From assembly GCA_910574455.1 (NCBI GenBank), contig CAJSYZ010000011.1, positions 2,604,001-2,668,000 on the forward strand: DNA of 64,000 nt, given 5' to 3'. Below, one piece after another: positions 35,963-61,260 of this stretch. The notes below the pieces were generated by a model. It saw only the letters and a program-made list of their open reading frames with translations. It searched no databases and was not told the DNA's origin. How positions within the stretch are numbered: the first letter of the stretch is position 1; every line of letters starts with the position of its first letter. This DNA is from Trichaptum fuscoviolaceum. Taxonomy: Eukaryota > Basidiomycota > Agaricomycetes > Hymenochaetales > Trichaptaceae. A program made the position numbers and the translations under genes.

Positions 35963-36039
35963 TTAGAAGTCTACGCAGTCCGTAGCCGAATCCCATTTTG
36001 AAGCGTCGTCCTCCTCATGATCACCATCTCCACCTAAAT

Positions 36040-36074
<35 letters not shown>

Positions 36075-39000
36075 CCCTCGCCCTCAATCTTGTCAACACC
36101 CTCGTCCCCGCTCTCGCTCAGGTTGTCGTCACCCTCAGCATTAGCATGCTCGTCCTCTGCATCACCTTCCACCTCGCCTCTATACTCAGCCCCCTCACGC
36201 TCTTCGCCCTTATCGTCGGTTCCGTCGGTTCCGTCTTCCCAATTATCAGCGCCTTCGTCATACGCTTTCTCGCAGGTCGAATCTGCATCTACAACGTCAA
36301 AATACAAGGAAAAGTCCCTGCCAGTGATACCCGATCCAACAAGTTCGGTGTTCTTTCTCGTATCGATATCTGTACTGGCATCGTAAGCTAGGAGGCGGGA
36401 TCGAACCTTTTCCCAGTTTGATTCAGTGAAGAAAGAGGGATTCGACAACAAGTTAACATAGTCGTCCGTATGAGGCTGCCACAGAGCGCTAGTGAAATAC
36501 CACTCAGCGCCGCCAAGTTCTTCTTTGATATTTTGCAACCGAGCCACCTGTTTATCAATGGCAACCTTGACCTATCCATGGGAAGATCAGCGAATAAGGA
36601 CAATATAAAGTGCTGAAAAAAGTAGATACCGCTGTTGCCGCAAGGGCGAGGGCACCGATAGGCTTTCCTATGGTGTTTCTGTCCAGTATTTTATGCCGAC
36701 CCATGGCCAAGACAATGTGTACGGACAACACTGAGACCACAAGGTCAGAGCAGAACAGTCCTTGCTTCTGTACATTTAGGGTCAATGCATGGACACAAAA
36801 TGCAACAATAAATACTCTTTTACTTACCCTCTCCATACTATACCAGCTTTCCCATAGAAACGGTTCGGCTTTCTTCTTGTCAACTAGCGTCTGCAACATC
36901 TTCACAATTGCTTCGTTTTGCATTGACTTTGATTGTTCGCCGCTGATAAAACTAGCAACTGATTGCTCAGCTTTCTCAAACAGCTTCTTGCGCCAGCTAT
37001 CAGAGCATCTCTGGGCCGCCTGAAATACGAGGATTGCATCTCAATTTGGTAAAGTGATTTGAGAATAAGTAAAAATGACTCAACTAGAGAACAGATATCG
37101 GCGAACTGAGTTTCGTAAATGAGTTCCACAGAATCAAACACTTTCCCCCACAATGAGCTGATGAGCTTATTGTCCGGGGTTTGCCATGGTGTGACGGACT
37201 TTCCAACTGCGCGAAATAGTGAAGGTAATAGAATATGAGTCCATCCTGCCTGAGTACCGGGAGGGAGACACTGGTTCGTCGCCCTTTTCCTGCCTGGCAC
37301 GCGAGATCCTTCCCTTCCTTCATTTCGATCCTTGTCCTCAAGTCCCACTGATGTCTGCATATACGTACATCAGCAAAATATGTCATAGAAATGAATTTGA
37401 TTCGACAAACTGAGCTAGTAGTCCGAGAGACTTTGCGATGACCTTGATAAGCCCCAGTCACTATCACTTCGGGTCCGGGGGTGCGGGACGCTCTCGTCAT
37501 TGCAAGCGACGGTGCTCGAGGTGCTAACGACACATCTTTCGACCACCAGACTATTAAGAAAAGAAGGTGAATGCTCACGTTTAGAGTGTATCAATCGACT
37601 CTCACTTACTTCATTATCAGCCACCAGCAACTGCCTCTTGCGATTAAAGGTAGCGGATCCAATCTCCGGCTGCAACACGTCAGAAAGCTGTTATCCATGG
37701 CAAGTGAGCAGATCGAAAAGAAGCACTTACCGTCGTGTCGGCCTCAGGCCGATAAGGAATATCAGAGGGGTTCCTCTTCTTACTCAAGTCCTTTCCGCCT
37801 GATCAGATACGAACTTGAAATGCCAATTACCATAGAATTGACACTTACTGTGGCACCGGCCTGTGTGTCCATGTCAATCAACAATGACTTATTGATCTTG
37901 ACAGTCTTATTAGCCTATTGAGATGGTTCAAATTAAGTAAACATGAAATGAAGGAATTCATTGCACGTGAAGGTAGAAGAATTACCACATTAACCTGAGA
38001 GTCGGTGTCTGGTGGCGACTTCCTCTTTCCGTTCTTTGTGACTGTGATGTCCTATTCATATGCACACATTAGCGATCGACTCGAAGTGAAGAAGGAAACG
38101 AATAGTTGCTACAGGAGAGCACCGGACGTGAGCCTACGGTGCATCGACGCTCACACATACCTGTACACGGGGTTCCAAAGCTAGTGATCGCACCTTACGA
38201 CCATAAATAAAGGGGGGAACGAGAGAAGTTGAAATAAGATAGACTTACCGGTGCGCTAAGCTGCGAGTTAGCAGTCCTCTTGTTTGCATCCTATGCAAAT
38301 ACCAATTCAGCAATGAAGGATATAGAATGAAGATCACTGTGCTTCGCTGTCTGGCACTCACCTGTCCACCTGGTTTTATCTCGTTGTTCTTATCCTCGAG
38401 TACGGGAAGGGATTGCTTAGTAGAATGAAAAATGAAAAATGATATGACATCGCTTACCGTTGAAACCTGCGACCCGGAAAGAGTGTCATGCAATAACTTC
38501 CTTTTCTTCGAGTTGAGGTTGCTGCTACCTCCATCCTGTTCATGACACGGCAGTTGGCAGATAAATAATAACGAAGGGATATGAACAAACGGTCATGGAG
38601 TAACTGACGTGAATCGAACAGAAATAAGTCGTACTCACACAAGCTTGAGCCGGCCTTGTTAGCCTCTTCGGATTGCTTCCGCCCTATAAACAAGTTATTC
38701 AGACTGCATTTGCCATTCTAATGCTCCGTCAACTCACAACATTTGATTCCGAATCGACAAGATGTGCCTTCTGTTGCACACTGATTGTGCTATTTTTTAC
38801 ACCATGATAGCTTGTAAGGGTGATTGTTTCTCCTTCATCCTCCCAGGGACTTAAGTTTTCATCATCTGGCAATGAGATGGTGTGTCTGGTGTAGCTTTGC
38901 GTCAGCAAGGCTCATAATACAGTGGTAACAAGGACAAGAGCGTCAATATTGCAGGTGAAGGACTTCCAAGTCGGGTCTTGGCCCGGGAGCGTCACGGTCA

Positions 39001-40197
39001 ACTTGAACCGCTGGCACCGTGACCGCAGTGACACTGGCAGCCTGAGTGGCAGGCTCATTAGTAATCTAGTACTACTACTAGTAGTAGTCGGGATGATGTT
39101 TAATCGCACTCACCATTACATTGACTTGACAGTACAAGATACTGATTCAGACGCAATGCAAGATTCAAACTTCAAACTCACAAATTGATCCTTTCTGAGT
39201 CTATCCCTGCCACTGGCACCTCAAGACCTCCACCCTCTTCACCGATGAAAGTGGAATCATCTGTGTTGCGAAGCGCCCTGACAGGGCGTTTTGTCTTGTC
39301 GTTCCGCCTTGACGTAGCGGGCGAGTCTATTATGTCCGTTTCTTCACCAGAAAGACTCTCGTTCGGTCCTGCAGGAGCGTGAAAGAATGCGTCGCTGGGA
39401 GTGGCGGCAGACCTGGACATCTTTGCGGTCTGCACACGTGTGCGAAATGGAAGTTCACCTTTGGAGTCTTCTTTCCTAGCTTTTTTTGCAGGCTTCCCGT
39501 TTGGCTCATCCATACTCGCTGCTTCGCATTAACGTGAGTCACAGGGTTCAACCTCCAAGCTTTGAGATCGTCTGAAAATGTATAGGTAATGTTACTCACG
39601 AATATCCAAGTCTTCGTTGTGTCCATCTTCACAATCCGATATGTCTTTAACATCGTTCTTCGAGTCTGTTTATGCCAGTTCAAATCTGTGTCATCACTGA
39701 TCTAAAGTTGAAGACTTACAACTAGATTCGCCTTTTGGCTTTCTACGTCCACGTTTGCCAGTGAGTTTGGGCACTGTTGAGCCCATCTGGGTGCGTGTCT
39801 CAAGAGCCTTCGACAAGTTGTTTTCAAGCTCTACGGTCTCTAGCATCGCTGCTTCTTGGTTCTCTGCTGCAGTCACCTTCTTGCGAACCTTGTCAGCTGC
39901 CTCTTGTTCTTTTGCTGCCCGTTTTTGCTCCGCAGCGAGTTTTTTCCTCTCTTTCGCAACCGCGACTTGCTGGGCCGCAGCTCTGCGGAAAGCTGTCCGC
40001 TCTTCCTTCTGCTTTTCCTTCTCTTCCTTCTCCTTCAATGCCTCATCCCGCCTTTCTGCCTGCCGTACTTTCCTTTTCTCTTTTTCTTCCTTCTCCCGCA
40101 ATATCTCCTCCTGTGTTCGTCTTGTTCTGAGTTGGTCAACAACTGCTCCGGGGTGCTTTTCCCTGTTCTTAGCCCTTGTCTGTCTTTGAGTTGACAT
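35963..40197 (-). CDS. Coiled-coil gene with DUF6532-like C-terminal domain, many mini-exons
   Basis: The first exon (40197 to about 39714) encodes a charged Lys/Glu/Arg/Ala coiled coil of about 160 residues beginning MSTQRQTRAKNREKHPG and ending in a basic GKRGRRKPKG patch that could be a nuclear signal. A Ser/Lys/Arg-rich disordered middle is encoded by a string of very short exons. Eight of them are phase-0 and multiples of three (38535-38458, 38394-38362, 38290-38249, 38193-38161, 38051-37986, 37914-37849, 37790-37731, 37669-37610). The C-terminal part (about 37300-36380) reads KVFDSVELIYETQFADI, KAEPFLWESWYSMERV and IGKPIGALALAATAV. From memory this resembles the DUF6532 region common in Agaricomycetes. 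The tail is acidic (Glu-Gly and Glu-Asp runs) and stops at 35963. Function is unknown. Such genes are often multicopy and transposon-associated. Junctions at about 39.6-38.9 kb and 37.6-37.3 kb are unresolved. Confidence 0.65.
36040..36086. repeat. Hexanucleotide microsatellite in a coding exon
   Basis: CTCGCC-type hexamer repeats (preceded by CTCGTC units) encode the alternating Glu-Gly and Glu-Asp tail of the minus-strand gene. Repeat-number change here would only lengthen or shorten the acidic tail, in frame. Confidence 0.85.
38925..39110. repeat. Word-array island A (inside an intron)
   Basis: A short stretch built from a recurring small set of words: ACTTGAA, CACTGGCA and its inverse, CCGTGAC/GTCACGG, CCTGAGT/ACTCAGG and the triplet palindrome CTACTACTAGTAGTAG (39070-39088). 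It interrupts the minus-strand coiled-coil gene between exons, so it is probably intronic. The same vocabulary recurs at 40330-40469, 46890-47480, 47730-48250 and 61040-61260. Confidence 0.7.
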
Positions 40198-40329
40198 TTT
40201 GTGCAGTGTTTTGAGACTTGTATGATGATAAGATGTGTCGAAGGTGCAAGTTCAAGATCAGGGAGGCGGGGGCGTCTATCTTAGACAAGTTGAAAATTTA
40301 CGCCCACTACTACCGTGACTACTCTATGA

Positions 40330-40469
40330 CTAATTTTAACTCAGGTTCAAGTTCACTGGCACTCCGAGTCCGACTCACTGCCAGTGCTAGCAGCCTGCCA
40401 GTGCCAGTGAGGCTCAGCTGTGAGTCCCAATTGTCGACGTGTACTACTACTGAGGTTACATTCAAGTTG
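40330..40469. repeat. Word-array island B (divergent promoter)
   Basis: The same word set as island A fills the gap between the start of the coiled-coil gene (minus) and the start of the Plavaka-type gene (plus). GGTTCAAGTTC, CACTGGCA, CTCCGAGTCCGACTC, GCCAGTGCCAGTGAGG and TACTACTAC are visible. It ends at the transposase ATG. The position suggests it acts as, or inserted into, a shared promoter. If the element is CACTA-like, it could also be a subterminal motif array. Confidence 0.65.
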
Positions 40470-43400
40470 ATGCCAGCGACACGGAAAAAGCACGATCCCT
40501 TTCATTTTCCACCAACTATTCGATGCACCTTGCCTGGCTGTAGTAGGATGTTCAAGAGTCAATCTGGAAGAGCAAGACATGAATATTCAGCTCATCCGAC
40601 GTCATTCTTGGCAAATTCTTCTGCCTGTGGTCATGAATATGAATCGTCACCTATTCGACCCATACGAGCTCCAAGTCCTCAACTTGAAGCTCTCCTGAGG
40701 TCGTCCGAACTTCCATCAGAGGGTCATCTTGAGAGCGGCTCTGACTCCTACGATTACGATATTTCCATGCTTACACAGGATATCTCGATGCTCAGTATAG
40801 GCCGAGACGAGCTGCTTCAAGATTTGGACAGACCTGATTCTCTGTCCCATTCTGTCACCGGAAGTGACAGTGGCCGTTCTGAAGACTTGGATTCCGACAT
40901 TGGAGATTATAAGGAGAGCGAGGATAACTTGAAGGTGTATCACAGATACTTGAATGGTGCGCGCCAAATCAATTGTTCCCGGTTTACTGTAGCATTTTGA
41001 CACCAAACATTGTGCAGCCACTCCATGTGATGCAGAAGGGAACTTCTTAGAATACGAAGACTCACCCGCTCCGCGAAACGAATCTGCGTCAAATGACTGG
41101 TTTCCATATTCGTGCCGAGCAGATTTTGAGCTCGCAGATTTTCTCTATCGGGAAGAGCAAATGTCTGCTGGGAACATAACAAAGCTTCTGGGAATCATGA
41201 AGGCTTATCAGCTGATTCAGGAGGCGGAGAATGTAAAATCTTGCGGATGTTCCGAATTGGATGCGACCATTGCCTGACGATGACTTGGATCTGGGTTCAA
41301 CTAGTACGCTACTCGATGGAGATGCGCAAAAAATGTATAACGCCATTGATGCTACGAAAGTCGGTGATGTGTCTTGGAAATCCTTTAGTAACTTCTACAC
41401 GGACGATCATAGCCAAAAGGCAACAAACGAGAACACCGAGTCATGGAAGAGGAAAGAATATGATGTATGGTATCGGGATCCTTTGGAAGTGATCCGGAAT
41501 TTGGTGGACAATCCGGCGTTGGAAGGCGAATTTGACTATGTCCCGTTTCGTGAGTATCAGCCGAAGGAGGACTCTGATGACAACAAAGAACGAGTCTTCA
41601 GAAACTACATGTCCGGAAACTTTGCTTGGGAACAGGCTGTAAGTCATGAATCATGCAGCATTCAAAGTTGGAAGAAGTGTATTGATAATCCTTGACTTAG
41701 AACAAAATCTTCGCCGAAGATAAAGCGGTCCATGGGTCTATGTTCGTTCCGGTCATCTTAGGGAGCGACAAGACAACAGTCTCCGTTGGAACTGGCAACA
41801 ACGAATATTATCCGTTATATCTTTCAATAGGAAATGTATCTAACAAGGCCCGGCGGTCCCAAAAGCTGAATACAGTCCAGCTCGTAGCATTTCTAGCAAT
41901 ACCAAAGAGTGTGTGTCAAAAACTGAGCTATCCATTTGTGTTCTGATGCTTTGCAGCTGAACGGCAGTACGAAAAGTCGGATGAATTCCGCCGCTTTCGA
42001 CATCAAGTCTTTCATTCATCTATATCGAGAATCTTGAGACCACTGAAGAGCGCAATGTCCATAAACAACGAACAAACCATTTTCCGGTGCCCTGATGGTC
42101 ACTTGCGTAGGTCGGTTCTCGGACTCGGCTCGTATATAGCCGATTATCCGGAACAGGTGAGTCTATGCGCAATATGCACTGGATGGTGCTGCAAGTAAGT
42201 ATTGTCCTTTCCAAAAATCACATCCGACTTGAGTTCGAGGAAATGGCTTAATGCGGCTACTATATAGATGTACAGCACCTCACAAGAACCTAGATAATCC
42301 GGAATTTGTTACAAATCCTCGAACAAAAGAGCTGCACGAACGATTGATAGAACAGGTGGATGACAATAGCATAAGTAGAGCCACAATTCGTAAGGAGTAT
42401 GGGTTCCACCAAGATATCGTCGTATGTGTTCCAACTTCAAGTTGTCCATTAGATGCACTTACCGCAACTTGAACTATGTCCCGTAGCCCTTCACCAATGA
42501 TTTTCCGCGTGCAGATATATGCGATCTCATTTCTCCAGACTTACTGCACCAAATCATCAAAGGCGTGTTCAAGGATCATCTTGTCGAGTGGATTTGCCAG
42601 AGCATGACCACAACAGAGCTGGATATTGTGGATAAAAGGTACTATTCCCTTACAAGTCGTGTGAATACCATTGCTAACTTTCACGTAGAATCAGAGTTGC
42701 TGCTCCTTTTCCCGGACTTCGCAGATTTCCCGAAGGTCGAGGCTTCAAGCAATGGACAGGTAATGATTCAAAGGCACTTATGAAAGTATGTGGTATTTTC
42801 ATCATGATCTTGTTTGAGGTGGTGGTTTGCTGATATCTGATGCAATCCGCTTACTAGGTGTATCTTCCGGCTATTGTGGGCATTGTACATGATGATATAG
42901 TTCACGCATTGAGTGCATTTCTGGACTTCTGTTACCTTGTGCGTCGGTACACGATTACAGCCTCAACTCTTGATCAGATTAAAGCCTCTCTGGATCACTA
43001 TCATCAATATCGCAAAATATTCATAGCTAAGGGCATCCGGGATAACTTCTCACTTCCACGACAGCATGCCATGATTCACTATCCTACAATGATCCCTCTC
43101 TTCGCTGCACCAAGCGGGCTGTGCTCATCAATCACAGAGAATAAACACATTTACGCGGTCAAGGAAACGTGGCGACGCTCAAACAGAAATGATCCTTTGG
43201 GTCAGATGATCACAGCAAACCAACGTCTCAGTAAACTTATTGCATCGAGGGCAGACTTCAAGAGGCGTGGAATGCTGGAAAGCCTCTGGCTGAGGCTTCA
43301 TGGAGAGCTTTGCAAGATGTTCTGCGCAGGAATATGTCAGAGTCGGAGACAGATGACGCTGAGAGGACCCGAATTCGGAAGGAGCAGATGCACCATCATG

Positions 43401-44456
43401 ATACACCCGTAGCTGGCGCAGCTGATGATACAGAGGACTTCTTCGATGACATTGTGGGCAATAATGAACTCAACGAAATTGCAGACCTGGAAGATCCCGA
43501 AAACGTAGTGTATGGGCCACATCATCTTGCGGTTCATGGCATACTACATGCTGAACGCCAGATCCGCTTGGGTGGCAGAAATGACCCTTTGAGCTTGATC
43601 TTAATGGCTTCCAAGCAACGTGGGTATTACTTGGTAACCCATGCTTTGGTGTTGCACATCTGACTTCTTTGTTGTCATCCTTGCAGAGTCCAGTAAGGTG
43701 TATCCTAAACAGCTCAACACGCTTGCGGCGATAAAAGGTCATCCAGAGCTCCGACAGCTCCGACAGCTCATAAAAAAATACTTATTCAACAAGTACGAGA
43801 ATCACATCTCCAACTCAAGGGGCTCCTCTGGCAGAGCCCAACCAGCAGTTGAATTGGACACAAGCAATGACTTTTCAATATTCCATTCAGCCACTGCTTT
43901 CTTTGCCTACCATGGCGAATCGATCCCTATAGAACAAGCAATGAGGGAGGCGATCAGGTCCAATCCCTCTTGGCGCGGAAAAGCAAGACGTGATGCAGTC
44001 CTTGTTCGAGTTAGCTCCTGCATAAAGGGGTTTGCAGGAATGAGAGTTGCCCGGGTTATGCTTCTTTTTTCCTTCACCGCTAAAGGGGAACGTCAGGACT
44101 GCGCTCTCGTCCAATTTTTCAAGCGTGTTGGAGATTCACCCGACCTGAAAACAAGAATGTGGATAGTCGAACCGGAGTATGAGTTAGAGAGCTCTACCAC
44201 CTGTGTCGGATGCTGTACTGGAGTGAATGCCAGTGGCAGATGTCGCTATCACCGCGACTGCAAGGCTCCGAAGCAATCTGTGATAGATGTAGGGGACATC
44301 CTCCGTTTGGCCCACCTCCTGGGGGTTCCGAAGGGTGATGAATGTCCTCCAAAGTCATTGACACCTGAGGAGACCCTGGATTTTTATGATAGATTCTATG
44401 TTAACCGATTTGCTGACATGCACATGCACCAAACACTGTACGAAGCTAGACAATAA
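40470..44456 (+). CDS. Plavaka-type transposase gene, probably decaying
   Basis: From the ATG at 40470 the frame encodes a C2H2 finger (C19, C24, H37, H42: CTLPGCSRMF...HEYSAH) and an acidic linker. An intron at 40957-41017 leads to FELADFLYREEQMSAGNI. The core then has EYDVWYRDP, GEFDYVPFREY, FVPVILGSDKTTVSVGTGNN, EYYPLYLSIGNV, RCPDGHLRRSVLGLGSYIAD, SPDLLHQIIKGVFKDHL, AFLDFCYLVRR and LCSSITENKHIYAVKETWRR. The C-terminal part has PSWRGKARRD, VARVMLLFSF, CALVQFF and FYVNRFADMH. This matches my memory of basidiomycete Plavaka transposases (CACTA-like). Two places need a 1-2 base shift (about 41260 and 43280), so it is probably not functional unless these are base errors. A Cys/His-rich insert (CVGCCTGVNASGRCRYHRDC) occurs near the C-terminus. 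I could not identify terminal repeats. Confidence 0.82.
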
Positions 44457-44689
44457 TTACTAAGTTAAACTCTTCCGTTAGCACATTCAAGTTGCCACAT
44501 AGTACTACAAAGTGTATTGAGACTTGTTGTACAGTTTACATTGCCAGAGCCAGCGGCGACGACATCATGGTATTCATTGTTCGAGGTAATATAATTATCA
44601 ACAAATCTCAAAGCAACAAAGGGAGAAACTGGAGATGCAAGCATACTGTGTCCATTGTCAACCCACCACCTACGAGAGGGCTAATTCGG

Positions 44690-46870
44690 CTAGTAGTTGA
44701 GGCAACCTTGAGGACTTGAAGGCTTGGAGTCATCCTTTGACTTTATCGCCAATTCTAAATAATTGCGATACCCTAGAACTTCTTTAATATCAATTTTCAT
44801 CGCGATGCCCTTCGGGGTTTGTCTATCGAATGACGAGCACACCGCCTCCATCAGATACATTTGGTATCTGTGCATGTCCGCCTCCTGCAAGAAAGTTGTT
44901 CGAGTCGTCTGGCTATCTAAGGACCCTGCTGACGTCGATGCTGCCGTGTCCTGTCTTTCCTTCCCCTTGCCCTTCAAGTTCGTTTGATAGGCCTCCAATT
45001 CGTCCCTGTTATAGGCTGCTAACATATCAATAGAATCAAGGACAGCATCAGTCGACTCCTGCCCTTGATGTATGATCTTGTTTAAGAGCCCTTTTATGAC
45101 CACGCCTTTCCCATTCTGCATGACGACATCGAAAAGACCCTTTGTGGAGGCAATTTGCAACCATCTCTTGACAATCCTAAGCGCTCCTATCAATCTCCTC
45201 TGAAGATAATCCAATTCCTGGAAGCAATATTGAATCTTGTCAGCAGAATTATCTGCCAAAATTGCTGCTTCGGCGTTTTCCAAAAGCTCCAGAATATCTC
45301 TTGCCTCGAAAATAATTGCATAGTCGTTGGAGGTAACAGCAAATGCATCCCTCCTCTGGAAGAATGCGTCGTGAATATTGCACAGATTAATCGCCATTTC
45401 CCAAGATTTCTGCGTGTTGTCAAACTGTAGTAGCGTTTGATTGACCTCAGTTTGCTGGGGCTGAAAATGAAGCTGTCTAACCGCAGGCGTATTGTATTTC
45501 GATTGCAAACTCCCTGCTTCCGATATCGGTTGATAGAATGGCCTCAATGTCAGGGGCCGAAGATCGGGACGACGACGATTGGGAGGCTGAGATTGAGCCA
45601 CGAGAATCTTAGAGATGTCGACTGACATTCTTTGGAGATCGGCGTCAATGATTGCGATGAGTTCGTAGATTACGTCGTAGTAGGCCTGGAAGAGCGGTAT
45701 GAAGAATTGGAAAGCCTTAAGATTTTCGGCATCCCTATCGTATGAGTTCAATACTGCGAAAAACCCTACTGCCTTCTCTTCTCTATAATGTCCATATTGA
45801 GATAGCAGTTCTCTAAGACCTTCCGAGCCGTTGCGAGAATGAAGTCGGTAGTATTTATTCATGATTTTCTGAAACGCGCCCTCGTTCACCTCGAAGTAGT
45901 AGGAACCGAAGGGATCTTCAGTGCTCCGGCTGTCAAGGCATTTCTGTATGTCCGAATCTTTGAACCCAAGGACAATTGCGGAGGATTCCATGAAGAAGAA
46001 CCTTAGACTATCCAAGGTCTTCCTTACTCTAACAGCGTCGCCTGCTGCCCGTGACTAACAAGCGTAGGTTATTAGACGTTCTTTTTCGAAACATGATCCT
46101 ATTACTTACCCCAGCAACATTACTAGTCAAGAGATCGACATAAGAAGATATCTTGCTAAGAGTTTTTTTCATCGTATCAACCTGACCCTCCAAACTCGCA
46201 ATCCATCATCCGATGAAAGGCCTGGATGGCCTGAAGTCGAGCGAACCGACTCGTTGCCTTCTATGCCAGTGTGCGAAGCACTTTGTGCCATATTTTTAAG
46301 CAGTTCACCTATACTATCTCCGCGATCTCCGCCAGTGACAGGTGTTTGGACAAAACTGCCAGGTCCCGTGACGCCACTCACATTATCGGGCAGTGATGAT
46401 GGTGGCCTTGATGGTGGTGGAACAGATACCGGGAACGGTGCCCGATGACTCGGCGTTTCGTCCTCCTCAACTTTACGCCTTTTGCTGTCACTGGCAGGAG
46501 TACCTTCAGGTTCATTGTGATGGTGGCTACTAGGACTCCGAGTTGAAATGCGATCTTGAAGACTCGGACGTTGGCTACCACTACTCCGTTTTGGAGGGCC
46601 GGCAGAAATGCGATCTTCAAGAGCCTGAGGTCGGCTATTAGGACTCGGACTTGCAGGGCCGGAGAAAATGCGTTCTTGAAGAGAGCCATGACTCCCAGCT
46701 GAAGGGTTGTTCGAAGATCTATGTGCGTACGCTCTAACCCAGTCTGGAATTTGCGACGGGGGGCGCGATTGGTGCCCCCAGTTGCCTCGACCTCCATGAT
46801 TTGATCTCGCCCGCGGGGCAGATGTGCGTTCCTCAACTGTCTCATGAACGGGCCGTTTCCTTTTATCTAC
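44690..46870 (-). CDS. Unrecognised gene: disordered repeats, coiled coil and helical C-terminus
   Basis: The last exon (ends 44690) encodes about 450 residues of mostly helical sequence with no domain I recognise. It has a Lys/Gly-rich KGKGKERQD linker and stretches such as FEARDILELLENAEAAILAD. A phase-0 intron with a GTAAGT donor separates it from an exon encoding SLEGQVDTMKKTLSKISSYV, a likely coiled coil. The N-terminal exon (about 46860-46205) is Ser/Pro-rich with three imperfect repeats (SLQERIFSGP, ALEDRISAGP, SLQDRISTRS) and a DSKRRKVEEDE nuclear-signal-like patch. A one-base shift is needed near 46205 to join the disordered part to the coiled coil, by a missing G or decay. The true start is upstream in an exon I could not place, possibly inside the word array at 46890-47480. 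It lies 3' to 3' with the transposase gene and may be cargo of the same block. Confidence 0.55.
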
Positions 46871-46889
46871 AATTTAGCTATTGTCAGAA

Positions 46890-51953: not shown

Positions 51954-51967
51954 TTACCCCCCTCCAA
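51954..51967 (-). promoter_or_regulatory. Polypurine tract
   Basis: On the minus strand the bases just 5' of the 3' LTR read TTGGAGGGGGGTAA. A purine run in this position is the usual primer for plus-strand DNA synthesis of LTR elements. It supports the assignment of orientation. Confidence 0.75.
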
Positions 51968-52010
51968 GGACGCTGCTAAACAGCGTGCGTGTTCGTACCG
52001 ATCCGTACGG

Positions 52011-55000
52011 TCACCGTACCGCCAATGGGTATTTGCGATGGAAAGCACGAATTCGAGCTTGTGCGTGTTCCATATTAGCCGCGTCGAGCCAGGTATCTTC
52101 GTCCGACTGGTAACCCTTCCATCGAACCAAATACTGAAGTTTCTGCGTACGGCCCGTACGACGCGAGTTCAGTATCTCCTGAACTTCGTACTCAATGTCC
52201 CCATTGATTGGTACGGGCTCGGGAGGGTTCTGTACGCGTCCGGGGATCGTGTCCGACTGGTACTTGGTCAGGAGCGAGACATGGAAGACTGGGTGCACCT
52301 TCATTGAAGCTGGAAGTTTCAGCTCATAGTTTAGCGGACTTAGCTTTCGTACGACCTCGTACGGACCGAGTCGACGATGGTTGAGCTTCCTCGCACCTGG
52401 CAAGGCTATATTGCGAGCCTCGAGCCAGACACGATCACCTGGTTCGATGTCCGGTACGTCCGTACGGTGCTGGTCGTAGTAGCGCTTCATACGATCCGCA
52501 GCAACTTCCAACGCGGCCTGGGCATCGTCCTGAGCCTTCTTCAGCATGTCTAGACGGTCATCAGCTGCTGGTACGGTCGAAAGACCCGTACTCGGTACGA
52601 TGGCGAACCCGGGCTCGTACCCGTACAACAGCGCGAACGGCGAGGTCCGAGTGGCTGAATGCGCACGAGTGTTGTGCGCAAACTCGGCCATAGGCAGCAG
52701 CCGAGCCCAGTTCTCCTGCCGAACATCTGTGAAGGCTCGAAGATACTGTTCGAGCTCCTGATTTACTCGTTCGGTCTGACCGTCAGTCTGAGGGTGGAAA
52801 GAAGTCGAAGTAGCACCTTTAATACCAAGACACTTGAAGAACTCCTTCATGAAGCGTGATACAAACTGGGGCCCTCGGTCCGAGATGATTTTTCGAGGCG
52901 TACCATGGTGTTTCCAAACCTCGGACACGAACAGTTCGGCCGTACGAGTCGAGTCGATGTCGGACGTCGTTGGTACGAAGTGCGCCTGCTTGGTGAGCCG
53001 GTCAACCACCACAAAGATCGCGTCGAAACCCTCAGACGGTGGCAGCTGCGTGATAAAGTCGCAGGAGATGGTCTGCCATGGTCCGGACGGTACCTCGTTC
53101 GGTTCGAGCGGTCCGACGGGTCTTTGGGGAATATTCTTGGTGCGCATACAGGTATCGCACCCGGACACGTACCGCTCGACAAAAGAAGACATCCCTGGCC
53201 ACCAATAGTTGCGACTCACCAGCTCGTACGTCTTCCACCGTCCGGGGTGTCCCACCGGCAGAGAATCATGATGTAATTTCACAATATCTCGCCGAATTTC
53301 CTCGTCCTTCGGTACATAGACCTTCCCTCGGTACAGCAGTAGTCCATCCTCCGTGTTCCAGTCCTCCAACTCCTTCTTCAAGGACACAGGGGCCTTCCCT
53401 TTCAGTGCCTCGATCGCCTCTACCAATTCCTCATCCCAACTCTTCGAACTCCGGATCCTTCGCAACAACGCCGTGTCCCCCTCGAGCCGTACCATGCCTC
53501 GACGCATCGCGTGCAGGCGAAACAAGTCTCTGTCCAACAGAGTCCGGTTCGTGTTGTCCGGACCATTTGGTTCGAGGTCGGTACGACGTGACATCGCGTC
53601 TGGCTTGCCCCCAAGCCGGCCAGGGCGATGTCGGATCGTGAAGTCGAACCGACTGAGAAAAATACTCCAGCGAGCTTGTCTGCGAGTGAGATTGCGAGCT
53701 TCAGAGAAGTAGAGCAGGTTCTTGTGGTCCGAGACAACGTCGATCTTGTGTGGAGACCCTTCGAGATAATGTCTCCACTCGTCGAGCGACCGTACGATAG
53801 CCAGTAGCTCCTTATCATAGATCTCATAGTTTCGCTCCGCATCATTTAGCGATTTCGAGTAGAAAGCCACCGGATGAATCGTACCGTCCGTACCGACCTG
53901 CGACAGTACTGCACCTGTCGCAAAGTCAGAAGCGTCACACTCAAGAATAAATGGTTTCTCGAGGTCAGGCATGGCCAGTACCGGTGCTTGAGTGAATCGA
54001 CGCTTCAACTCGTCGAACGAGGCTTGTTGTCTCGTACCCCACTCGAACCGGACGTCCTTTCGAAGCAGTTCGGTCATAGGCCGTACGATCCGGGAGTAAT
54101 CCTCGATAAACCGGCGATAGAAGTTAGCAAAGCCAAGGAAGGCTTGAATATCCTTGACCTTTGCAGGTGTAGGCCACTCCAGAACCGCACTGACCTTGGC
54201 CGGGTCCATCGAAACCGTACCGGCTCCGATAACCATGCCTAGGTATTCCACAGAAGACTGGTGGAACTTACACTTCTCCGGCTTGACAAACAGGTCGTGC
54301 TTCTCGAGCCGTTCGAGTACGGTACGAACGTGCTCGACATGATCTTCCTCATTCTCCGAGAAAATCAGCAAATCGTCAAGATAGATGATCACAATCACCC
54401 CATTCAGATCTTTGAAGATGTCGTTCATCATGTGCTGGAACGTCGCCGGAGCATTGGTGAGTCCGAAGGTCATCACCGTCGGTTCGAAGTGGCCTTCCTG
54501 CGTACGAAAGGCCGCTTTCCACTCGTCTCCTTCCTTCATCCGTACGTTGTGGTACCCGGATCGAAGGTCTAAGGTCGTAAACACCTTTGCTTTCTTCAAG
54601 GCATCGACTAGCTCAGTGGTGAGAGGCAGTGGATACCTGTTCTTCACAGTCATCGCATTGAGCTTGCGATAATCTACCACCATGCGCAGCGAACCGTCCT
54701 TCTTCTTGATAAAGAAAACCGGAGCCGCAGCCGGAGACTTGGAGGGTCGAATGTACCCCTTCCTCAAGTTCTCCTCGATGAATTCCTTCAGCGCCGTACG
54801 CTCGTTCGGCGCCATGGGGTAGATCTTGCTGTAAGAAGGTACCGCACCCGGTACGAGGTCGATAGCATGGTCGTACGGTTTACGGGTGGGGAGGCGTTCT
54901 GCCCGGTCCTTCGAGAAGACTTTGGCGAAATCGCGGTACTGCGGCGGTACGAGTTCTTCGAACGACTTCTCGCCTTCCTTCACTGCAGTCTTCTCAGCGA

Positions 55001-55826
55001 TTGCCTGAGACCAGGTGTACGAAGCGGCGATCCGCTGTGCGAAATCCGGGTCATCCGTGACAAAGAATTCCTCAGAATCGTGATAAACATCCCAATACTT
55101 CTCAGAATACCGGAAGCCTGGCGGAACCTTATCTCTTTCGCTAACCTGTTCGTCCGTACCACCCGAGTCGTACGGTTCGTCCTCGAGCTCAGCTACCGTC
55201 ACTCGAGTTCGAGGAGGTGGCCGAGGCTTCGCGCGGCGTGCGCGGTTCGAGGTCTCCGTACGAGCCGTGCGCACTGCGTCTGACTCCGGGGGACCTTCCA
55301 TCTGAAACTCCGTACGGTCCGTACGAGGCTGACAGGCCTTCACACAGCGCGTAAAGGTCATCTGGTCGTTCGCCCAGTCGATCTCTGGGTTGTGGAGTCG
55401 CAGCCAGTCGACCCCAATAATCAGGGGATAGTCCCCAATGTCCGCCACCACTGCAGTCACGTTCTCAGTGTGCGATCCGACCGTTAAACTAATCGGCACT
55501 TCATCTGTGAGCCAGCCCACATTGTTCAAGGAGTTGTCGGCATTGTACAACCGCGTACGAGGGACCAAGGGTCTCGTACGGAGCCCGAACCGTTCGACAA
55601 CCGTACGGTTAATAAATATCGATGAGGCCCCACTGTCTAAGAAGGCTCTCATCCTTAAAATCTTTCTGCCATCGCTGACTCTCACAGGAAAACGAATGAA
55701 CCGGCGCAACTTCTTGTCTATTGACTGTATACTAGTAGACATAGAAGGGACTGGGACATCATTTTCTAAACAAGAGAATCGGTTATGGGTCTCGAGCGGC
55801 GCGATGATGCGCTGAGACCCTAGTTG
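52011..55826 (-). CDS. pol: Chromovirus pol (PR-RT-RH-IN-chromodomain)
   Basis: The frame is open from the gag stop region to 52011. An internal ATG at 55742 would give 1243 residues. Numbered from that ATG, the aspartic protease motif DSGASS is at residue 36. Next come the RT core (MVVDYRKLNAM, then the YLDD box in IIYLDDLLIFS), RNase H (ILECDASDFATGAVLSQ), the integrase HHCC zinc region (LHHDSLPVGHPGRW ... CDTCMRTK) and the integrase DDE core (CDFITQLP, IISDRGPQF, QTDGQTERVNQEL). A C-terminal chromodomain (LQYLVRWKGYQSDEDTWL) ends the protein. All these key residues are present and I see no stop or shift, so the protein looks functional. Pol is in the -1 frame relative to gag and overlaps its end, so it is most likely made by frameshifting rather than from its own ATG. 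Confidence 0.96.
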   Translation of the reverse strand, partial: QLGSQRIIAPLETHNRFSCLENDVPVPSMSTSIQSIDKKLRRFIRFPVRVSDGRKILRMRAFLDSGASSIFINRTVVERFGLRTRPLVPRTRLYNADNSLNNVGWLTDEVPISLTVGSHTENVTAVVADIGDYPLIIGVDWLRLHNPEIDWANDQMTFTRCVKACQPRTDRTEFQMEGPPESDAVRTARTETSNRARRAKPRPPPRTRVTVAELEDEPYDSGGTDEQVSERDKVPPGFRYSEKYWDVYHDSEEFFVTDDPDFAQRIAASYTWSQAIAEKTAVKEGEKSFEELVPPQYRDFAKVFSKDRAERLPTRKPYDHAIDLVPGAVPSYSKIYPMAPNERTALKEFIEENLRKGYIRPSKSPAAAPVFFIKKKDGSLRMVVDYRKLNAMTVKNRYPLPLTTELVDALKKAKVFTTLDLRSGYHNVRMKEGDEWKAAFRTQEGHFEPTVMTFGLTNAPATFQHMMNDIFKDLNGVIVIIYLDDLLIFSENEEDHVEHVRTVLERLEKHDLFVKPEKCKFHQSSVEYLGMVIGAGTVSMDPAKVSAVLEWPTPAKVKDIQAFLGFANFYRRFIEDYSRIVRPMTELLRKDVRFEWGTRQQASFDELKRRFTQAPVLAMPDLEKPFILECDASDFATGAVLSQVGTDGTIHPVAFYSKSLNDAERNYEIYDKELLAIVRSLDEWRHYLEGSPHKIDVVSDHKNLLYFSEARNLTRRQARWSIFLSRFDFTIRHRPGRLGGKPDAMSRRTDLEPNGPDNTNRTLLDRDLFRLHAMRRGMVRLEGDTALLRRIRSSKSWDEELVEAIEALKGKAPVSLKKELEDWNTEDGLLLYRGKVYVPKDEEIRRDIVKLHHDSLPVGHPGRWKTYELVSRNYWWPGMSSFVERYVSGCDTCMRTKNIPQRPVGPLEPNEVPSGPWQTISCDFITQLPPSEGFDAIFVVVDRLTKQAHFVPTTSDIDSTRTAELFVSEVWKHHGTPRKIISDRGPQFVSRFMKEFFKCLGIKGATSTSFHPQTDGQTERVNQELEQYLRAFTDVRQENWARLLPMAEFAHNTRAHSATRTSPFALLYGYEPGFAIVPSTGLSTVPAADDRLDMLKKAQDDAQAALEVAADRMKRYYDQHRTDVPDIEPGDRVWLEARNIALPGARKLNHRRLGPYEVVRKLSPLNYELKLPASMKVHPVFHVSLLTKYQSDTIPGRVQNPPEPVPINGDIEYEVQEILNSRRTGRTQKLQYLVRWKGYQSDEDTWLDAANMEHAQARIRAFHRKYPLAVR

Positions 55827-57019
55827 AAACCCGATTCCTTCGAGAGGTGCGCCATAAGGACTTTGGCAGCATCAGAAACAGAGATTGGGTGTTCGGTCGT
55901 ACCGCTCGGTACGAGGGGGGTCTCGTCCGAGACGTCAGAGATCGAAGCAGTGGGAGCTGGGGCCGGTACTTGGGGTGTCGAGGCCGTACTGACGTTCGTA
56001 CGGTTCGAGGTATTAGACGCGTGGCGCTTGGGGCACTTGGCGGACATATGACCTTTCTCGCCACAGTGGAAGCATAACCCCTTGCGCAGCGCCTCTTCCC
56101 TACTGATCTGGTCCACCTCCATCGCGTTCGGATCACGGTGGCTCGAGCCGGTACGAGGCTGGTTCGAGTTCGACGTCTGACGCGTCTGGAAAGCAGTTCC
56201 AGTGCGCTGAGGGATGGGGTTGGTACGAGTTGTGGCACGGATGGCTCGCAGCTCATCATCGTAGACACAACAGGCCTTCACATACCCATCAAAGTCCTCA
56301 GGCATCTTCTTGAGCGTCAGGTCCGTACGAAAACGGTTCGAAAGTCCGTACCGGAACCAAGCAATCCATGGTTTATCGTCAGCAACCCACTTGGTCTTGA
56401 CCTTGAGAGCCCTGTAGCGAGCAGCATACTCAGCCACGGTTCCAGTCTGCCTGAGAGCCATAATTTCGTTCTCAGCAGCAGCAACAGCATCAGCTTCACC
56501 ATATCCAGCAGCCAGAGACTCCAAGAAAGTGTCCAACTTGTCGAAAATGGCGACCGGCTCGCCCTTGTGGATCGAGTCCATGTAGGGACGCACCCACTCG
56601 TCTGCAGGGCCTCGAAGGTAAGTCGCAGCGAACTGGCACTTCGTACGCTCGTCCGGGAACTCGTGCGGGCGCATAGAGATGTAGTTCCGTACCTGACCGG
56701 ACCAAGCTTCGTACGAAAGCTTGTCCTTGTCCGCGGCATCGCCCTTGGGGCCGTAAAACAAGCCTGGGGGTGGAATCTTCGGACCCTTCGTACCGCGCGG
56801 TTCGGCGACGCGCGTTTCGAGCGCTCCCTTCAAGTATGCATTCTGCTGAAGTAACTGATCGATCTGCTCCCTCCAGGGGGCCATATACTGGTTCAGCATA
56901 GCCTGAGTCGCCTCATCCATAGTTGGGGGTTGTGGGGGTATGGGTGCCTGCACGGGTGCGACGGGGGGCGCTCCAGGAGGGCCTCCGGGCGCAGGAACAG
57001 GCGGTGTAGTGTTCTGCAT
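55820..57019 (-). CDS. gag: Chromovirus gag
   Basis: A 399-residue frame with a Pro/Gly-rich N-terminus, a capsid-like retrotransposon gag region in the middle (YEAWSGQVRNYISMRP ... FAATYLRGPADEW) and one CCHC zinc knuckle, CFHCGEKGHMSAKC, near residue 310. It forms the particle and binds the element RNA. The frame ends in TAG at 55820-55822, nine bases after the start of a GGGTTTC slippery heptamer, from which pol can be reached by a -1 shift. The start ATG at 57017-57019 lies about 100 bases inside the 5' LTR boundary. Confidence 0.94.
   Translation of the reverse strand: MQNTTPPVPAPGGPPGAPPVAPVQAPIPPQPPTMDEATQAMLNQYMAPWREQIDQLLQQNAYLKGALETRVAEPRGTKGPKIPPPGLFYGPKGDAADKDKLSYEAWSGQVRNYISMRPHEFPDERTKCQFAATYLRGPADEWVRPYMDSIHKGEPVAIFDKLDTFLESLAAGYGEADAVAAAENEIMALRQTGTVAEYAARYRALKVKTKWVADDKPWIAWFRYGLSNRFRTDLTLKKMPEDFDGYVKACCVYDDELRAIRATTRTNPIPQRTGTAFQTRQTSNSNQPRTGSSHRDPNAMEVDQISREEALRKGLCFHCGEKGHMSAKCPKRHASNTSNRTNVSTASTPQVPAPAPTASISDVSDETPLVPSGTTEHPISVSDAAKVLMAHLSKESGFN
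55826..55832 (-). promoter_or_regulatory. -1 ribosomal frameshift site at the gag-pol junction
   Basis: On the minus strand the gag codons read TCG GGT TTC AAC TAG. The heptamer G GGT TTC fits the X XXY YYZ rule for -1 slippage. Moving back one base at this point continues as CAA CTA GGG, which is the open pol frame. A downstream stem-loop or pseudoknot, usually within 5-9 bases, was not modelled. Confidence 0.8.
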
Positions 57020-57115
57020 CGTACGGGCGTTCGAGCGAAGCGAGCGTCGGCAGAATGGTTCGAACGGTACGAGTTTTTTCGCGCGAGGTAGTGAGAAAAA
57101 AGACTTTTGGCCTAA

Positions 57116-57695
57116 TGTTACAACACAGAGTGGTTCTATGCGTTCTCAGGACCTCGGACAACGTAAATCGGACGATCAGCGGCTATGCGAAGCGGTTCCA
57201 CACTCTGGGAAGCACTTGACAAGTCAATTAAGCTATTCTACACATCAGAAGCACAAATATAACGTCACCTGGGAAGCACTTGACAAGAGGCCAAAAGTGG
57301 AGTGCTTCTCAGGCGGACGGGCGCTTTTGGCAAGCGCAGGAGGAACTATACAGTTCCTCCAAGCCACCGTCCGTACGGACCCGTGGTCCGATCCGAATTT
57401 GAAATACAAATAGAAAGATGAATAAGCATCGCTGGCGCGCCGGGTTTGAACCCAAGCGCACCAAAAGGTGTCCGTTAGTGAATAGAATGAAAAGAAACAA
57501 TAATCCCGTGTGCAGACAGATGCAAAGGTGTACGCGCCGTACGGGCTTCGTACCGAGCGCGTACCGCTGACCGTACGAGACCGTACGAGTGTCTCGTACG
57601 ATGTCAGGAATCGAAAGTAAATAAAAACATCAGTAAATCATAAGTAAACGGAAAATAAAAGAAAACAATAAGTAAATCCGTGGCGATTCCTGACA
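57116..57695 (-). repeat. 5' LTR of the chromovirus
   Basis: 580 bp, the transcriptional 5' end of the minus-strand element. It matches the other LTR throughout the segments I compared. The element leader follows at 57115 and contains an A-rich stretch (57096-57103) before gag. Confidence 0.95.
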
Positions 57696-57700
57696 TAGGT
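57696..57700. repeat. Target site duplication, right copy
   Basis: TAGGT directly after the right LTR, equal to 51369-51373. The host exonuclease frame resumes at the next base. Confidence 0.93.
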
Positions 57701-58246
57701 GATGAAACTGTATGGAAAGTGTCAGCAGGAATCGCTGGTACGACAATCCCATTTCTTCTCTCATTATGCGGCATAACTGAACTAATTGGCAGGTGATGCG
57801 ACTCGCATCAGGAATAAATTTGACATTCCCGTATCCTCCTGTGTCGATTTGACAGATTGGGCGCGCTTCGTTTACCCCGATTTCTGGCCAAGAACGCCAA
57901 CTTGGCTCCAGCTGCTTCTGAACCCCCGTCTCTGGTTCAAGTTTCCGCAACCGTTTATAAAGCTGGAGGAGATGGCGGGCAGGCTCCTGCAGACAAACAT
58001 CGAAAAAGATGTCTTGGTCACGATGAGCAATTGGGCCGAAGTTGAGCTGTCGGCTGCTCAAGTCCATTGTAAGTTATCCTTTTCAAGTTGTCACTCAGGC
58101 TGACCATCTTCTCACTTGCATCTGCTCTATTAGATGCGGCAATCGACGCGCACAGCACGTTTGCTGTTGCTTCCGTCTTGAATCAAGATGCCTTGGCCTT
58201 ACCGGATACAATAATCCATCACTTCCCAATGCTCGATATTGAGTAG
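57701..58246 (+). pseudogene. DEDDy 3'-5' exonuclease gene, 3' part
   Basis: The host frame resumes with DETVWKVSAGIAG and crosses a 55-nt intron (57738-57792) into GDATRIRNKF, which holds the Exo II Asp. DLTDWARFVYPDFW and a basic helical stretch follow. A second intron (58069-58133) restores VHYAAIDAHSTF, the Exo III YxxxD motif. The stop is at 58244-58246. With the 5' part, all four DEDD residues and the Tyr are present, so the gene was probably functional until the chromovirus inserted. In WRN-like proteins this domain trims DNA 3' ends, whereas RNase D-like relatives act on RNA. The sequence does not decide between them. Confidence 0.82.
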
Positions 58247-58696
58247 GCTGAGGCCCGTTTGAATAGTGCTAACGGTGTTATCTTGTTGAGTAAATTGTTG
58301 AGTGCATGCTCTTGTCTTCAAAAGTTGCCAGGAGCATCGTGATTGTATCTATTATTGAATTGCTTCTCGTTGAATGATCATTGTAGACTGAGGTTGTCAA
58401 TGGTGTTTGCTGTCGCTTTCAAGATGTCATGAAGATGAAGGTAGCTTGAAATCTCAAAACAGAGGTTCAAGTTCACTTGAGTACAGTAGTGGTAGTAGTA
58501 GTAAATCTCACTTGAGTCTGACTTGCCACCTGATGTACAGCTTCCCTCCTTACGCACTGATTTTGTCCTGAAACGCCGTTTTAAGGCCATCAGGCAGCCA
58601 GGCAACACTTCAGGCAGGCATGACAACGCTTCAACCCATTTAAGGAAGCTCCAGGACGCGCCAGCCGCCGTTAGCAATCTCTGATGTATTACACTT
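58247..58696. other. Spacer with word-array fragment
   Basis: No gene. At 58455-58540 a small patch carries the island vocabulary (GTTCAAGTTCACTTGAG, GTAGTAGTAGTA, CTTGAGTCTGACTTGCCA). The rest is the exonuclease 3' flank and the approach to the palindrome. Confidence 0.45.
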
Positions 58697-59065
58697 GAGC
58701 ACTGAAATCCTGACTTGCATTCTGATGCACTGAGAGACGGCTTGCATCCTGAAACACTCCTTATTTCAGTGAGATAAGGCAATCAGTGTATTTTCAGACG
58801 AAGTAGCGACCCTTCAGACAGGTGCCAGCCAAATCAGGACGCGTCAGTCGCCGTAAGCAAAAGGAAGTTTCCCTGATGCAGGGAAACTACTTTCTGCTTA
58901 TGGCCACTGACGCGTCCTGACGCGTCCTGATTTGGCTGGCACCTGTCTGAAGGGTCGCTACTTCGTCTGAAAATACACTGATTGCCTTAACTCACTGAAA
59001 TAAGGAGTGTTTCAGGATGCAAGCCGTCTCTCAGTACATCAGAGCAAGTCAGGATTTCAGTGCTC
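58697..59065. repeat. Second palindromic repeat, hAT-like tips head to head
   Basis: The arms 58697-58875 and 58879-59065 are near-perfect reverse complements around the 3-base centre ATG. The right arm carries one extra 10-bp unit (GACGCGTCCT) and the outer parts differ by a few bases. The centre reads TTTCCCTG-ATG-CAGGGAAA, so two CAGGG tips face each other. The right arm start (58879-58898) is identical over 20 bases to 35357-35376. Words such as TTTCAGTG, CAGTGCTC and AAATAAGG recur. There are no open frames of note. Confidence 0.9.
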
Positions 59066-59570
59066 TGCCAGTCACGGTGGTGTATTACTACTACTAGTAA
59101 GCACAAGCATGCACAGCCTGAGTTCAAGTCCAATGGTAAGTATAATATATGTTCTTTAAATTAGATATCATCCATGCTCATATACTATCACATCACGGTC
59201 CTTCAATTTGTCGTACTTGTGAGCCACCGTCCAAACAGACACCTAATTGTCCACTTTGCGTACTAAGGGGGCGCCGTACAAGCGTATGTGCGATCCATGA
59301 CAAGGAAGTACGAGTTGGACAAGGAGCTGTCATTGCTTCGTGCGCCGCAATACATCGCACTGCAAACATAATCTTGATGTGGTTAGTCGCCTGTCTGATC
59401 CTCCACTTGCAAGGGTATTTTTCGGCAGTTGTAGCTACAGAGTAGAGCTACTGCCAATGTCCTCATAACATGTACAGACATTTCCCTGAGTCCATGTTGC
59501 AAATCTAAAGAAACCCATAAGCATTGATTATTCAGAAAGAAATCAAACAATTTACACTACAGACAATGCG
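59066..59570. other. 3' flank of the membrane protein gene
   Basis: A short word-array patch (CTACTACTAGTAAG, GCCTGAGTTCAAGT) lies at 59085-59135. A plus-strand open frame at 59149-59445 is Cys-rich but has no start context or domain, and I treat it as chance. The segment probably includes the 3' UTR of the minus-strand gene. Confidence 0.4.
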
Positions 59571-61059
59571 CTATAACGCTTCCCACATCCCAACACCTGT
59601 GAAGACAAGCCCCAAGCTAACAAGGAAAGTGATGTACGCAGCGCCATGTTTCATTACGCTACGTAAGAGTAGGACAACGAGGATGACACGAATGGTGGTG
59701 AGGACAATGAATGCAGATGGAAGGGCATTCCAGTGAGAATGGATTCGTTCTATACTATGATCTCTGTCCCCCAAAGACAGAAATTCTACAACATCTAAAG
59801 GAGGACTTGCCCTTGCACGAGATTGATCACTCAGGTGAGCGAAACCGAGAATCAAAGTGATCCCAAGGCTCAGCAGAACACTGTTAATCCGCTGAACAAC
59901 AGCGATAGATAGTACTGGTACTTGGTCTCCATAGGCCATTTGAAGGCGAAGGTATCTTTCAAGTGATTTGCGCGCTTTGACACCGTGACGTGCCATCGAC
60001 ATTGAGGCATTCGAGTCCTCGCCGTTTGTTACCTCTCCGCCCATGACTCTAGAGATAGAGGTATCTTCGAGGTCCAAATCATCAACATCGGGCATGTTCA
60101 CTCGACTCAACACAACATTTTCGAGTGAACCTCCATCATCCGATACCGGGAGTCCACGTTCAGCCATATCCAGTCCCGAGTCCAAAACTGATTCGACGCT
60201 GGAATATAACGCAAGATGATCGTAGTCTTCCCCGATTGCCGTACACACTTCAGCCAATGACCACCCAAGGGCCAGGAACCAGAGTATGCCGAACGTACGA
60301 TCATGGACGTGCATCTGCCCTTCGCCATGTTTCCCAGGATGTGGACTATCACAGACAGGAGACGAGTGGATGTTGAGTATGTAAAAAGATGTAAGCCGCA
60401 GAACCTCTTGCAATGTCACCAAAAAAGCAGCGAGAATGTATCGTGCCCACAAAGCCACCCAATGTTGAACATGTCGCCTTTCTTGCACGTTTGAGAAAAA
60501 AAGTATCGTATAGGAGCTTGAATATATAAGGGGGAATGTTCGAGCACGAAGGCAGTGTGAAAAACACCAAAGCGATGCACCTAGAAGGACACTTCTCATT
60601 GATTCCGAGAGCGAAGGAGATTGATGCAATTTGTGAGGCCAGATGACTGCTGGCATTGATGCAAGCACGACGAAGAAGAGGAGGGATGTGAGAGGGACCA
60701 ATACATATAGTTTTTTGGTGCGCAAAAATGCCTCGACTACAAAAATGCATATAATGCAATTAGTCTATACTGATCCGAAATCGAGAATTTTGTAGACAAA
60801 GACCTCTCAGCGTTTCTTCATCGTTGTCCTTAATGTCTCCGTCGCCAAGCCCTTCTTGATCTCCCTCTGCAGTCTCGCCCATCGTGCTCGCAGGCGGTGA
60901 TCCACCAACTCGCTCTTGTGCACCAGGGGTTTGTGGGTTGGCAATGGAGCCATAGTTTTTGACCGAGAGCAAGTCGTCGGCGTTCGATGCGTGCTGCAAT
61001 GGTAAGCCGCTGGCACTGCCAGTGGCGTTCATGATAGCTTCAAGTTGAAAGTGAATCAC
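59571..61059 (-). CDS. Polytopic membrane protein of unknown function
   Basis: Exon 2 (about 60735-59571) encodes roughly 380 residues with seven or eight hydrophobic helices, for example LYVLVPLTSLLFFVVLASM, FGILWFLALGWSLAEV, LSLGITLILGFAHL and FIVLTTIRVILVVLLLRSV. A cytosolic acidic loop (DVDDLDLEDTSISRVMGGE) lies between helices. Exon 1 gives a soluble Ser/Gly/Asp-rich N-terminus starting at MIHFQL (61059) or at the inner ATG (61032). Two introns are possible in phase: a 34-nt one (GTATAG donor) or a 67-nt one (GTCTTT donor), both ending TTTTGTAG. I recognise no family. A fungal-specific membrane protein of unknown location is the safest call. Word-array sequence (GCCACTGGCAGTGCCAGC) reaches into its first codons. 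Confidence 0.7.
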
Positions 61060-61260
61060 TTCAAATTCAAGTTGAACGCGTCCGAGTCAGGCTGTGGCAC
61101 TGGTGGCAGTGACCGTGACGTGACTCCGAGTCCGTGCCAACTTGAATGCCAGTGACTGCAACCGCCGTGACACTGGCATCACTGGCATGCCGGTGTCCAC
61201 TACTAGTAGTACTATTACTAGTACTACTACTAGTACTTATCTATGTACTAGTATGTAAAT
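61060..61260. repeat. Word-array island E (upstream of the membrane protein gene)
   Basis: Dense copies of CACTGGCA, CACTGGTGGCAG, TTCAAGTTGAA, CCGTGAC, ACTCCGAGTCCG and a long CTAGTAGTACTATTACTAG-type triplet palindrome (61200-61245). It occupies the expected promoter of the minus-strand membrane protein gene. Confidence 0.7.

Follow-up and report, generated by a model that had tools for sequence, protein, structure and literature searches.

Nested PlavakaB elements and their islands of short words

The window analysed here is a stretch of 64,000 nucleotides of the Trichaptum fuscoviolaceum genome (contig CAJSYZ010000011.1, positions 2,604,001 to 2,668,000), and from position 35349 to its end it is occupied by two nested PlavakaB transposons that carry islands of short words. 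The words have the form XY-C-Y'X'-G-XY, in which XY is a dinucleotide, Y'X' its reverse complement, and C and G are separators. We consider it probable (about 0.85) that these words are 6-base-pair (bp) excision footprints of a PlavakaB-type DNA transposon or of a non-autonomous relative. The genome examined comprised 59 Mb in 12 contigs, and all copy comparisons were made within this one genome. In a protein comparison the top match with a species name reached 61% (Suillus paluster), and other database proteins matched at 95% and 76%, in keeping with an Agaricomycete.

Element A sits inside the tip of element B, flanked by the target site duplication (TSD) CA at 35352-35353 and 58879-58880, and splits B within the window. 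Outside the window, 71372 bases from its start, B was interrupted by a third element, C, which is related to A; an end of B at this point was rejected, as other B copies continued beyond it. The termini CATCA..TGATG were present at both ends of A and at the left end of B. A transposase test run for A gave E-values of 4.8e-25, 6.2e-27 and 4.2e-16 for its three open stretches (Table 1). The identity of its long terminal repeats (LTRs) shows that the retroelement nested in A is recent.

Both elements are repeated in the genome. Part of A had at least 28 near-complete matches, with 40 of 204 candidates scored, and one site in its transposase region was present at least 59 times. The 61-kb island of B had eight near-full matches at 97-100% identity, five of them on contig C7. 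Two B copies, cp5 and cp6, shared their left flank and may therefore be one insertion. The A of the window has apparently lost an internal part and carries a gene fragment, because four A copies held an extra stretch between the hot spot at 47482 and position 47488, and because the sequence from 47488 rightwards recurred at at least 12 other places with a different left side (L042, L043, L104-L107). Individual copies also held other DNA elements. A B copy (G000 C7:949501-969500, window position 63453) contained a 2351-bp element with a TA duplication and the ends CAGTAGAAACTGCG, an A copy (L041, window position 42475) contained a 1338-bp element with a 2-bp TA duplication and the ends CAGGGGGTTGCC/CAGCCGGTTGCC, and another B copy (G000 C11:2460501-2480500, window position 59810) contained a hAT-like insert of 1381 bp with inverted ends TAGAGCATGACACGGGTG and an 8-bp duplication.

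When 250-bp bins were scanned with a set of 44 words, bins with at least four words were found at 39.0, 40.25, 46.5, 47.0, 47.25, 47.75, 48.0, 59.0 and 61.0 kb. This recovered the islands listed in the original prediction apart from a patch at 58.5 kb, which fell below the threshold. The islands were not tandem arrays, as had been stated, TACTACTAGTAGTA-type stretches excepted. Their supposed location, mostly in promoters or introns of accessory genes, was not borne out, as most of them lay in the two nested PlavakaB transposons.

Table 1. Coordinates of elements, word islands and sites of word gain or loss in the window
Feature	Position	Strand	Details
Element B, first five bases (CATCA), left of A	35349..35353	+	five other B copies start CATCAGGGAAAC
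Element A, PlavakaB transposon with nested LTR retroelement	35354..58878	+	termini CATCAGGGAAAC..GTTTCCCTGATG; near-identical copies
Word island	38980..39100		8 words removable, two levels
Word island	40300..40470		9 words removable, two levels
Plavaka transposase of A, three open stretches	41237-41692, 41701-41943, 42487-42780	+	Pfam PF18759
Word island	46900..47450		9 words removable
Hot spot, plain in window	47482..47487	+	of 28 copies, 26 plain, one CA -> CACTGGCA, one TG -> TGCCAGTG
Words close to 3' part of A	47720..48150		
Polymorphic putative footprint TGCCAGTG	47746..47753	+	present in window and 10 of 15 other A copies; plain TG in 5
Site plain in window	48126..48133	+	GA -> GACTCGGA in 5 other A copies; 6-bp tandem duplication equally good
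Ty3-type LTR retroelement in A	51374..57696	-	chromodomain; 581-bp LTRs 100% identical
Element B, remainder, running past window end	58879..64000	+	long alignments; matches to 61-kb island
Small word patch near left end of B	59030..59130		
Site plain in window	59333..59336	+	TG -> TGCCAGTG in copy cp2; surrounding sequence unrepetitive
Word island in B	60995..61255		14 words removable
Putative footprint CACTGGCA in window	61178..61187	+	copy cp7 has plain CA
Site plain in window	61247..61252	+	TA -> TACTAGTA in cp4, cp5, cp6

A single word form, its enrichment and its gain between copies

The two words AACTTGAA and CACTGGCA occurred 36 and 30 times in the window, and in five order-3 Markov shuffles the count of the top 8-mer was 11-13. 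The repeated words are thus real and exceed what composition would give. The six words named in the original prediction were all present, but they turned out to be one form with nested extensions rather than a vocabulary. AACTTGAA, CACTGGCA, GACTCGGA, AGCCTGAG, ACCGTGAC and TACTAGTA all matched XY-S-Y'X'-S-XY with C and G as the separators S, and 11-mers such as TTCAAGTTGAA were extended versions. A reading as a fixed motif was rejected because the rule is one of complementarity, which held across dinucleotide classes, and not of sequence. The 8-mers of the CCGTACGA/ACCGTACG type, which lie outside this rule, were also over-represented in the window (14-17 copies).

Words were counted in four regions, namely window 1-35348, A after exclusion of the LTR retroelement, B as far as 71372, and the C region. 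The last of these is the first 15.7 kb of C2; it opens with element C and possibly takes in part of a B copy. Pooled over these regions, 245 words of the form XY-C-Y'X'-G-XY were observed against 23.2 expected. The same frame with other middle dinucleotides reached only 1.27-1.57 times expectation, and C..G frames of other lengths 1.00-1.45 times. The excess was found in A (66 vs 4.9 expected), B (79 vs 5.4) and the C region (48 vs 4.4), and amounted to 145 vs 8.1 in A and B taken together with the retroelement excluded. The words were not limited to the interval 38925..61260, to which they had been assigned; window 1-35348 held 52 vs 8.9 expected (5.8-fold, with one cluster at 3.5 kb), and the flanks of six B copies held 36 vs 10.6. 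The young retroelement inside A served as an internal control, and there the words were near chance (3 vs 1.7).

With any C/G separators, the dinucleotide classes AA, CA, GA, AG, AC and TA stood at 5.2-13.3 times expectation in A and B, and weaker classes followed with AT at 2.9, CG at 2.4 and CC and GC at about 1. The separators C..C and G..C were also raised, 1.2-5.7-fold outside the retroelement, and mixed separators up to 3.1-fold in B, as nesting would give. T..A separators, the expected scar of TGT..ACA PlavakaA elements, were not enriched in A (6 vs 4.1), B (2 vs 2.3) or the C region (4 vs 3.2), and numbered 16 vs 8.1 in window 1-35348 (z 2.4). As to whether the target motif is longer than the dinucleotide, G was raised at +1 and +4 around words and not clearly so in 36 insertion arms.

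The enrichment extends to the whole genome, where CACTGGCA occurred 15,070 times and its reversed control 1,397 times, about a tenfold difference. The 15-mer CACTGGCAACTTGAA, two joined words, was found 20 times and its reversed control 0 times. If the CA class makes up a quarter of all words (61/245), the genome would very roughly hold 50,000 of them, and the three words counted in arbitrary stretches totalling 5.9 kb would correspond to about 30,000, chance ones included. Many of these words are passengers that were copied by amplified elements and are not separate events.

The window was compared with 29 complete or partial copies of A and B, and a match was used if it reached 96% identity and 200 columns. 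The distinct gap sites were 37 of 1 bp, 6 of 2 bp, 4 of 3 bp and 11 of 6 bp, with a few longer, and none of 4, 5 or 7 bp. At 10 of the 11 six-bp sites the change from XY to XY-C-Y'X'-G-XY was exact. When 6-bp sequences were inserted at random into eleven such sites, the rule was obeyed in 158 of 200,000 trials (about 0.0008). With two further fitting cases, one in cp1 beside the insertion of C and one TT event in a longer variant of A, 12 of 13 six-bp indels between otherwise identical copies obeyed the rule with duplicated target bases, and XY was TG, CA, TA, GA, TC or TT. Two of these 12, at 48128 and 71201, were explained equally well by simple tandem duplication, the only point in favour of ordinary slippage or duplication of 6-bp units, which we regard as scarcely credible because the other ten were not tandem duplications and the event at 59333 took place in unrepetitive sequence. 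At the hot spot, two of 28 copies carried separate scars on adjacent dinucleotides.

Words are also nested within words. Every word was deleted and the newly exposed words were counted against a null of 300 trials per region, and 12 second-level words appeared in B (null mean 0.8, max 4) and six in the C region (0.3, max 3). A third level in B held two more. Nesting is therefore shown for two of the four regions, B and the C region. Of the three readings originally offered for the islands, an accreting repeat came closest, with 6 bp added at a time. None of the observations required the reading as shared regulatory modules.

The dinucleotides of the words match those that PlavakaB elements duplicate. 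These elements start with C and finish with G, and the 2 bp of target that they duplicate vary; their two end types occurred 220 and 150 times. A duplicated dinucleotide was seen in 17 of 19 fetched end pairs (16 of exactly 2 bp and one matching 5), in eight spellings; of the remaining two pairs, one was masked and one had no match. At L102 and L103 the PlavakaB ends formed tandem pairs with spacings of 24 and 34 bp. A set of 56 TSDs was assembled from the end pairs, the case of A in B and 38 distinct left flanks (40 fetched in listing order, two duplicates dropped), in which the TSD was read from one side only. The TSD classes (AA 16, CA 11, TA 10, AG 6, CG 4, AT 4, GA 4, AC 1, CC 0, GC 0) correlated with the 245 words (AA 60, CA 61, AG 42, GA 31, TA 25, AC 17, AT 5, CC 3, CG 1, GC 0), with a Spearman coefficient of 0.83 (p 0.003), or 0.70 once divided by background. 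Word density was 7.7 per kb beside 18 insertions (16 in 2,088 bases), 2.9 beside 38 more (21 in 7,334 bases) and 0.5 in a set of 20 stretches chosen arbitrarily (3 in 5,860 bases). At 5 of 18 insertion sites the complement dinucleotide lay one base away, where chance would give about two.

An excision-footprint model and its alternatives

The words are best explained as a variant of the transposon excision footprint and not as an array of binding sites. In the model, insertion duplicates the 2 bp XY around an element that starts with C and ends with G. The transposase would later cut one base inside each element end, so that C and G, the terminal bases of the element, are left on the flanks. 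Each flank would be sealed as a hairpin XY-C-Y'X', as by RAG, Transib and hAT enzymes, a step that the palindromic product suggests. If the hairpin is then opened two bases beyond its tip, the two new 3' ends would be complementary because both flanks carry XY; they would pair over 2 bp, and fill-in would add exactly 6 bp, the middle Y'X' being flank copied back. Since insertions occur in word-rich ground, scars would form beside and within scars, giving islands and palindromic 11-mers. More broadly, we think it likely, with less assurance than for the footprints themselves, that excision by a fungal relative of the RAG/Transib/CACTA clade produces a single, stereotyped 6-bp scar of P nucleotides, that reinsertion nests these scars, and that the tens of thousands of words in the genome are a layered record of jumps. 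The C2H2-like protein at 40470, suggested earlier as a candidate binder, needs no role in the model.

Several observations weigh against the model. No site was found filled, empty and scarred among the three that were checked; all 59 intact copies of the L041 insertion site were plain; a pattern for one PlavakaB site had no match in the genome; and none of 32 copies held an element at the hot spot 47482-47487. The six-bp indel at 70216 breaks the rule, and would obey it only if a substitution next to it were accepted. Among ten six-bp gaps in the older alignments of A with C, only one clearly fits, and two others were flagged by the script just for a nearby word. Second-level words in window 1-35348 (1 vs a mean of 0.3) and in A (3 vs 0.6) lay within the null, with maxima of 3. 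CG and AT were commoner in TSDs than in words, and AC was commoner in words. Finally, hairpin joining in V(D)J recombination is imprecise, so a uniform product is unusual (PMC13041557; this and the other papers are cited from excerpts).

The same footprint mechanism could act mainly through another C..G-ended family with a 2-bp TSD, for instance that of the CAGTAGAAACTGCG or the CAGGGGGTTGCC elements, which we judge unlikely. A copy of B and a copy of A do contain inserts of this kind (2.35 and 1.34 kb), each with a TA duplication and the ends CAG..CTG, but both are at TA, which accounts for 25 of 245 words, and they are the only insertions of these other families that were seen, while varied dinucleotides are demonstrated for PlavakaB. 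Such elements may contribute to the TA word class. An origin without any transposon is less plausible still. A dinucleotide would break and polymerase snap-back would copy XY and add C-Y'X'-G-XY, which accounts for a self-complementary product and would fit the failure to find a filled and scarred site, but leaves unexplained the fixed C and G, the fixed length of 6 bp, the match to PlavakaB TSD dinucleotides and the excess of words beside insertions.

It is very improbable that selection maintains the islands as binding-site arrays for a host factor or the element's own transposase. Both A and B do have many words close to their ends, and the original suggestion of subterminal transposase-binding arrays in CACTA-like elements was right in that the islands belong to such (Plavaka) elements. 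The words, however, have no fixed sequence, with six dinucleotide classes under one complementarity rule; they also occur outside the elements, and one was gained in word-free sequence (59333). In addition, the A and C islands fail to align. Unrelatedness of the islands on alignment had been named in advance as a sign against the prediction, and it was partly found: A and C cease to align at the islands at 38.9 and 40.3 kb, yet C has islands at corresponding positions. This does not refute the finding, since independent accretion predicts it.

If the footprint model is correct, the excision chemistry of a little-studied RAG1-related transposase clade can be read from sequence alone, and nested scars would reveal the order of jumps. 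Much of the short-word structure that has lacked an explanation in a mushroom-type genome would then be transposon debris and not regulatory code, and a scar in coding sequence would uniformly add two codons and keep the frame. The model would also caution against labelling such words as binding sites.

Comparison with known transposon footprints

Subterminal repeats of CACTA (En/Spm) elements are short words in both orientations near the element ends, and are copies of a fixed motif. The words in the window resemble them in their location near ends and in their two orientations, and differ in that XY varies by class under the complementarity rule. Elements A and B are like PlavakaB as described, with CATCA..TGATG termini, 2-bp TSDs (2 or 3 bp in the description) and, in A, a Plavaka transposase (PMC12730594). 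According to the excerpt of that paper, Plavaka shares a clade with EnSpm, Transib and RAG1; the excerpt mentions no footprint at excision, and the term 'footprint' occurs 0 times in the paper. Insertions and excisions have been described in Marasmius oreades, in the excerpted part without such a footprint (PMC9674265). None of the papers listed in literature searches described such a footprint or such words in its title or abstract, which does not establish their absence from print.

Footprints of Tc1/mariner and Stowaway elements also keep a 2-bp TSD and element bases (PMC2874221, PMC4561436). These elements, however, target TA, whereas here TA accounted for just 25 of the 245 words and for 10 of the 56 TSDs. 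The Sleeping Beauty scar TAG(T/A)CTA (PMC2874221) has no reverse-complemented TSD between the element bases. The footprints of Ac/Ds, a hAT element, likewise contain palindromic flank sequence, which is taken as a sign of hairpins (PMC4561436). In contrast to the 8-bp TSD that is the rule for hAT (PMC12730594), the duplication was 2 bp in both words and insertions, with one terminal element base per side and a uniform gain of 6 bp. RAG and Hztransib make hairpins on the flank (PMC6941560), and Artemis cuts hairpins open either at their apex or 2-4 nt from it (PMC13041557). Such opening would yield palindromic additions of this kind, as in the P nucleotides of V(D)J recombination. V(D)J and Hztransib junctions are diverse (PMC6941560, PMC13041557), whereas a single product is found here, probably because the same 2-bp TSD lies on both flanks.

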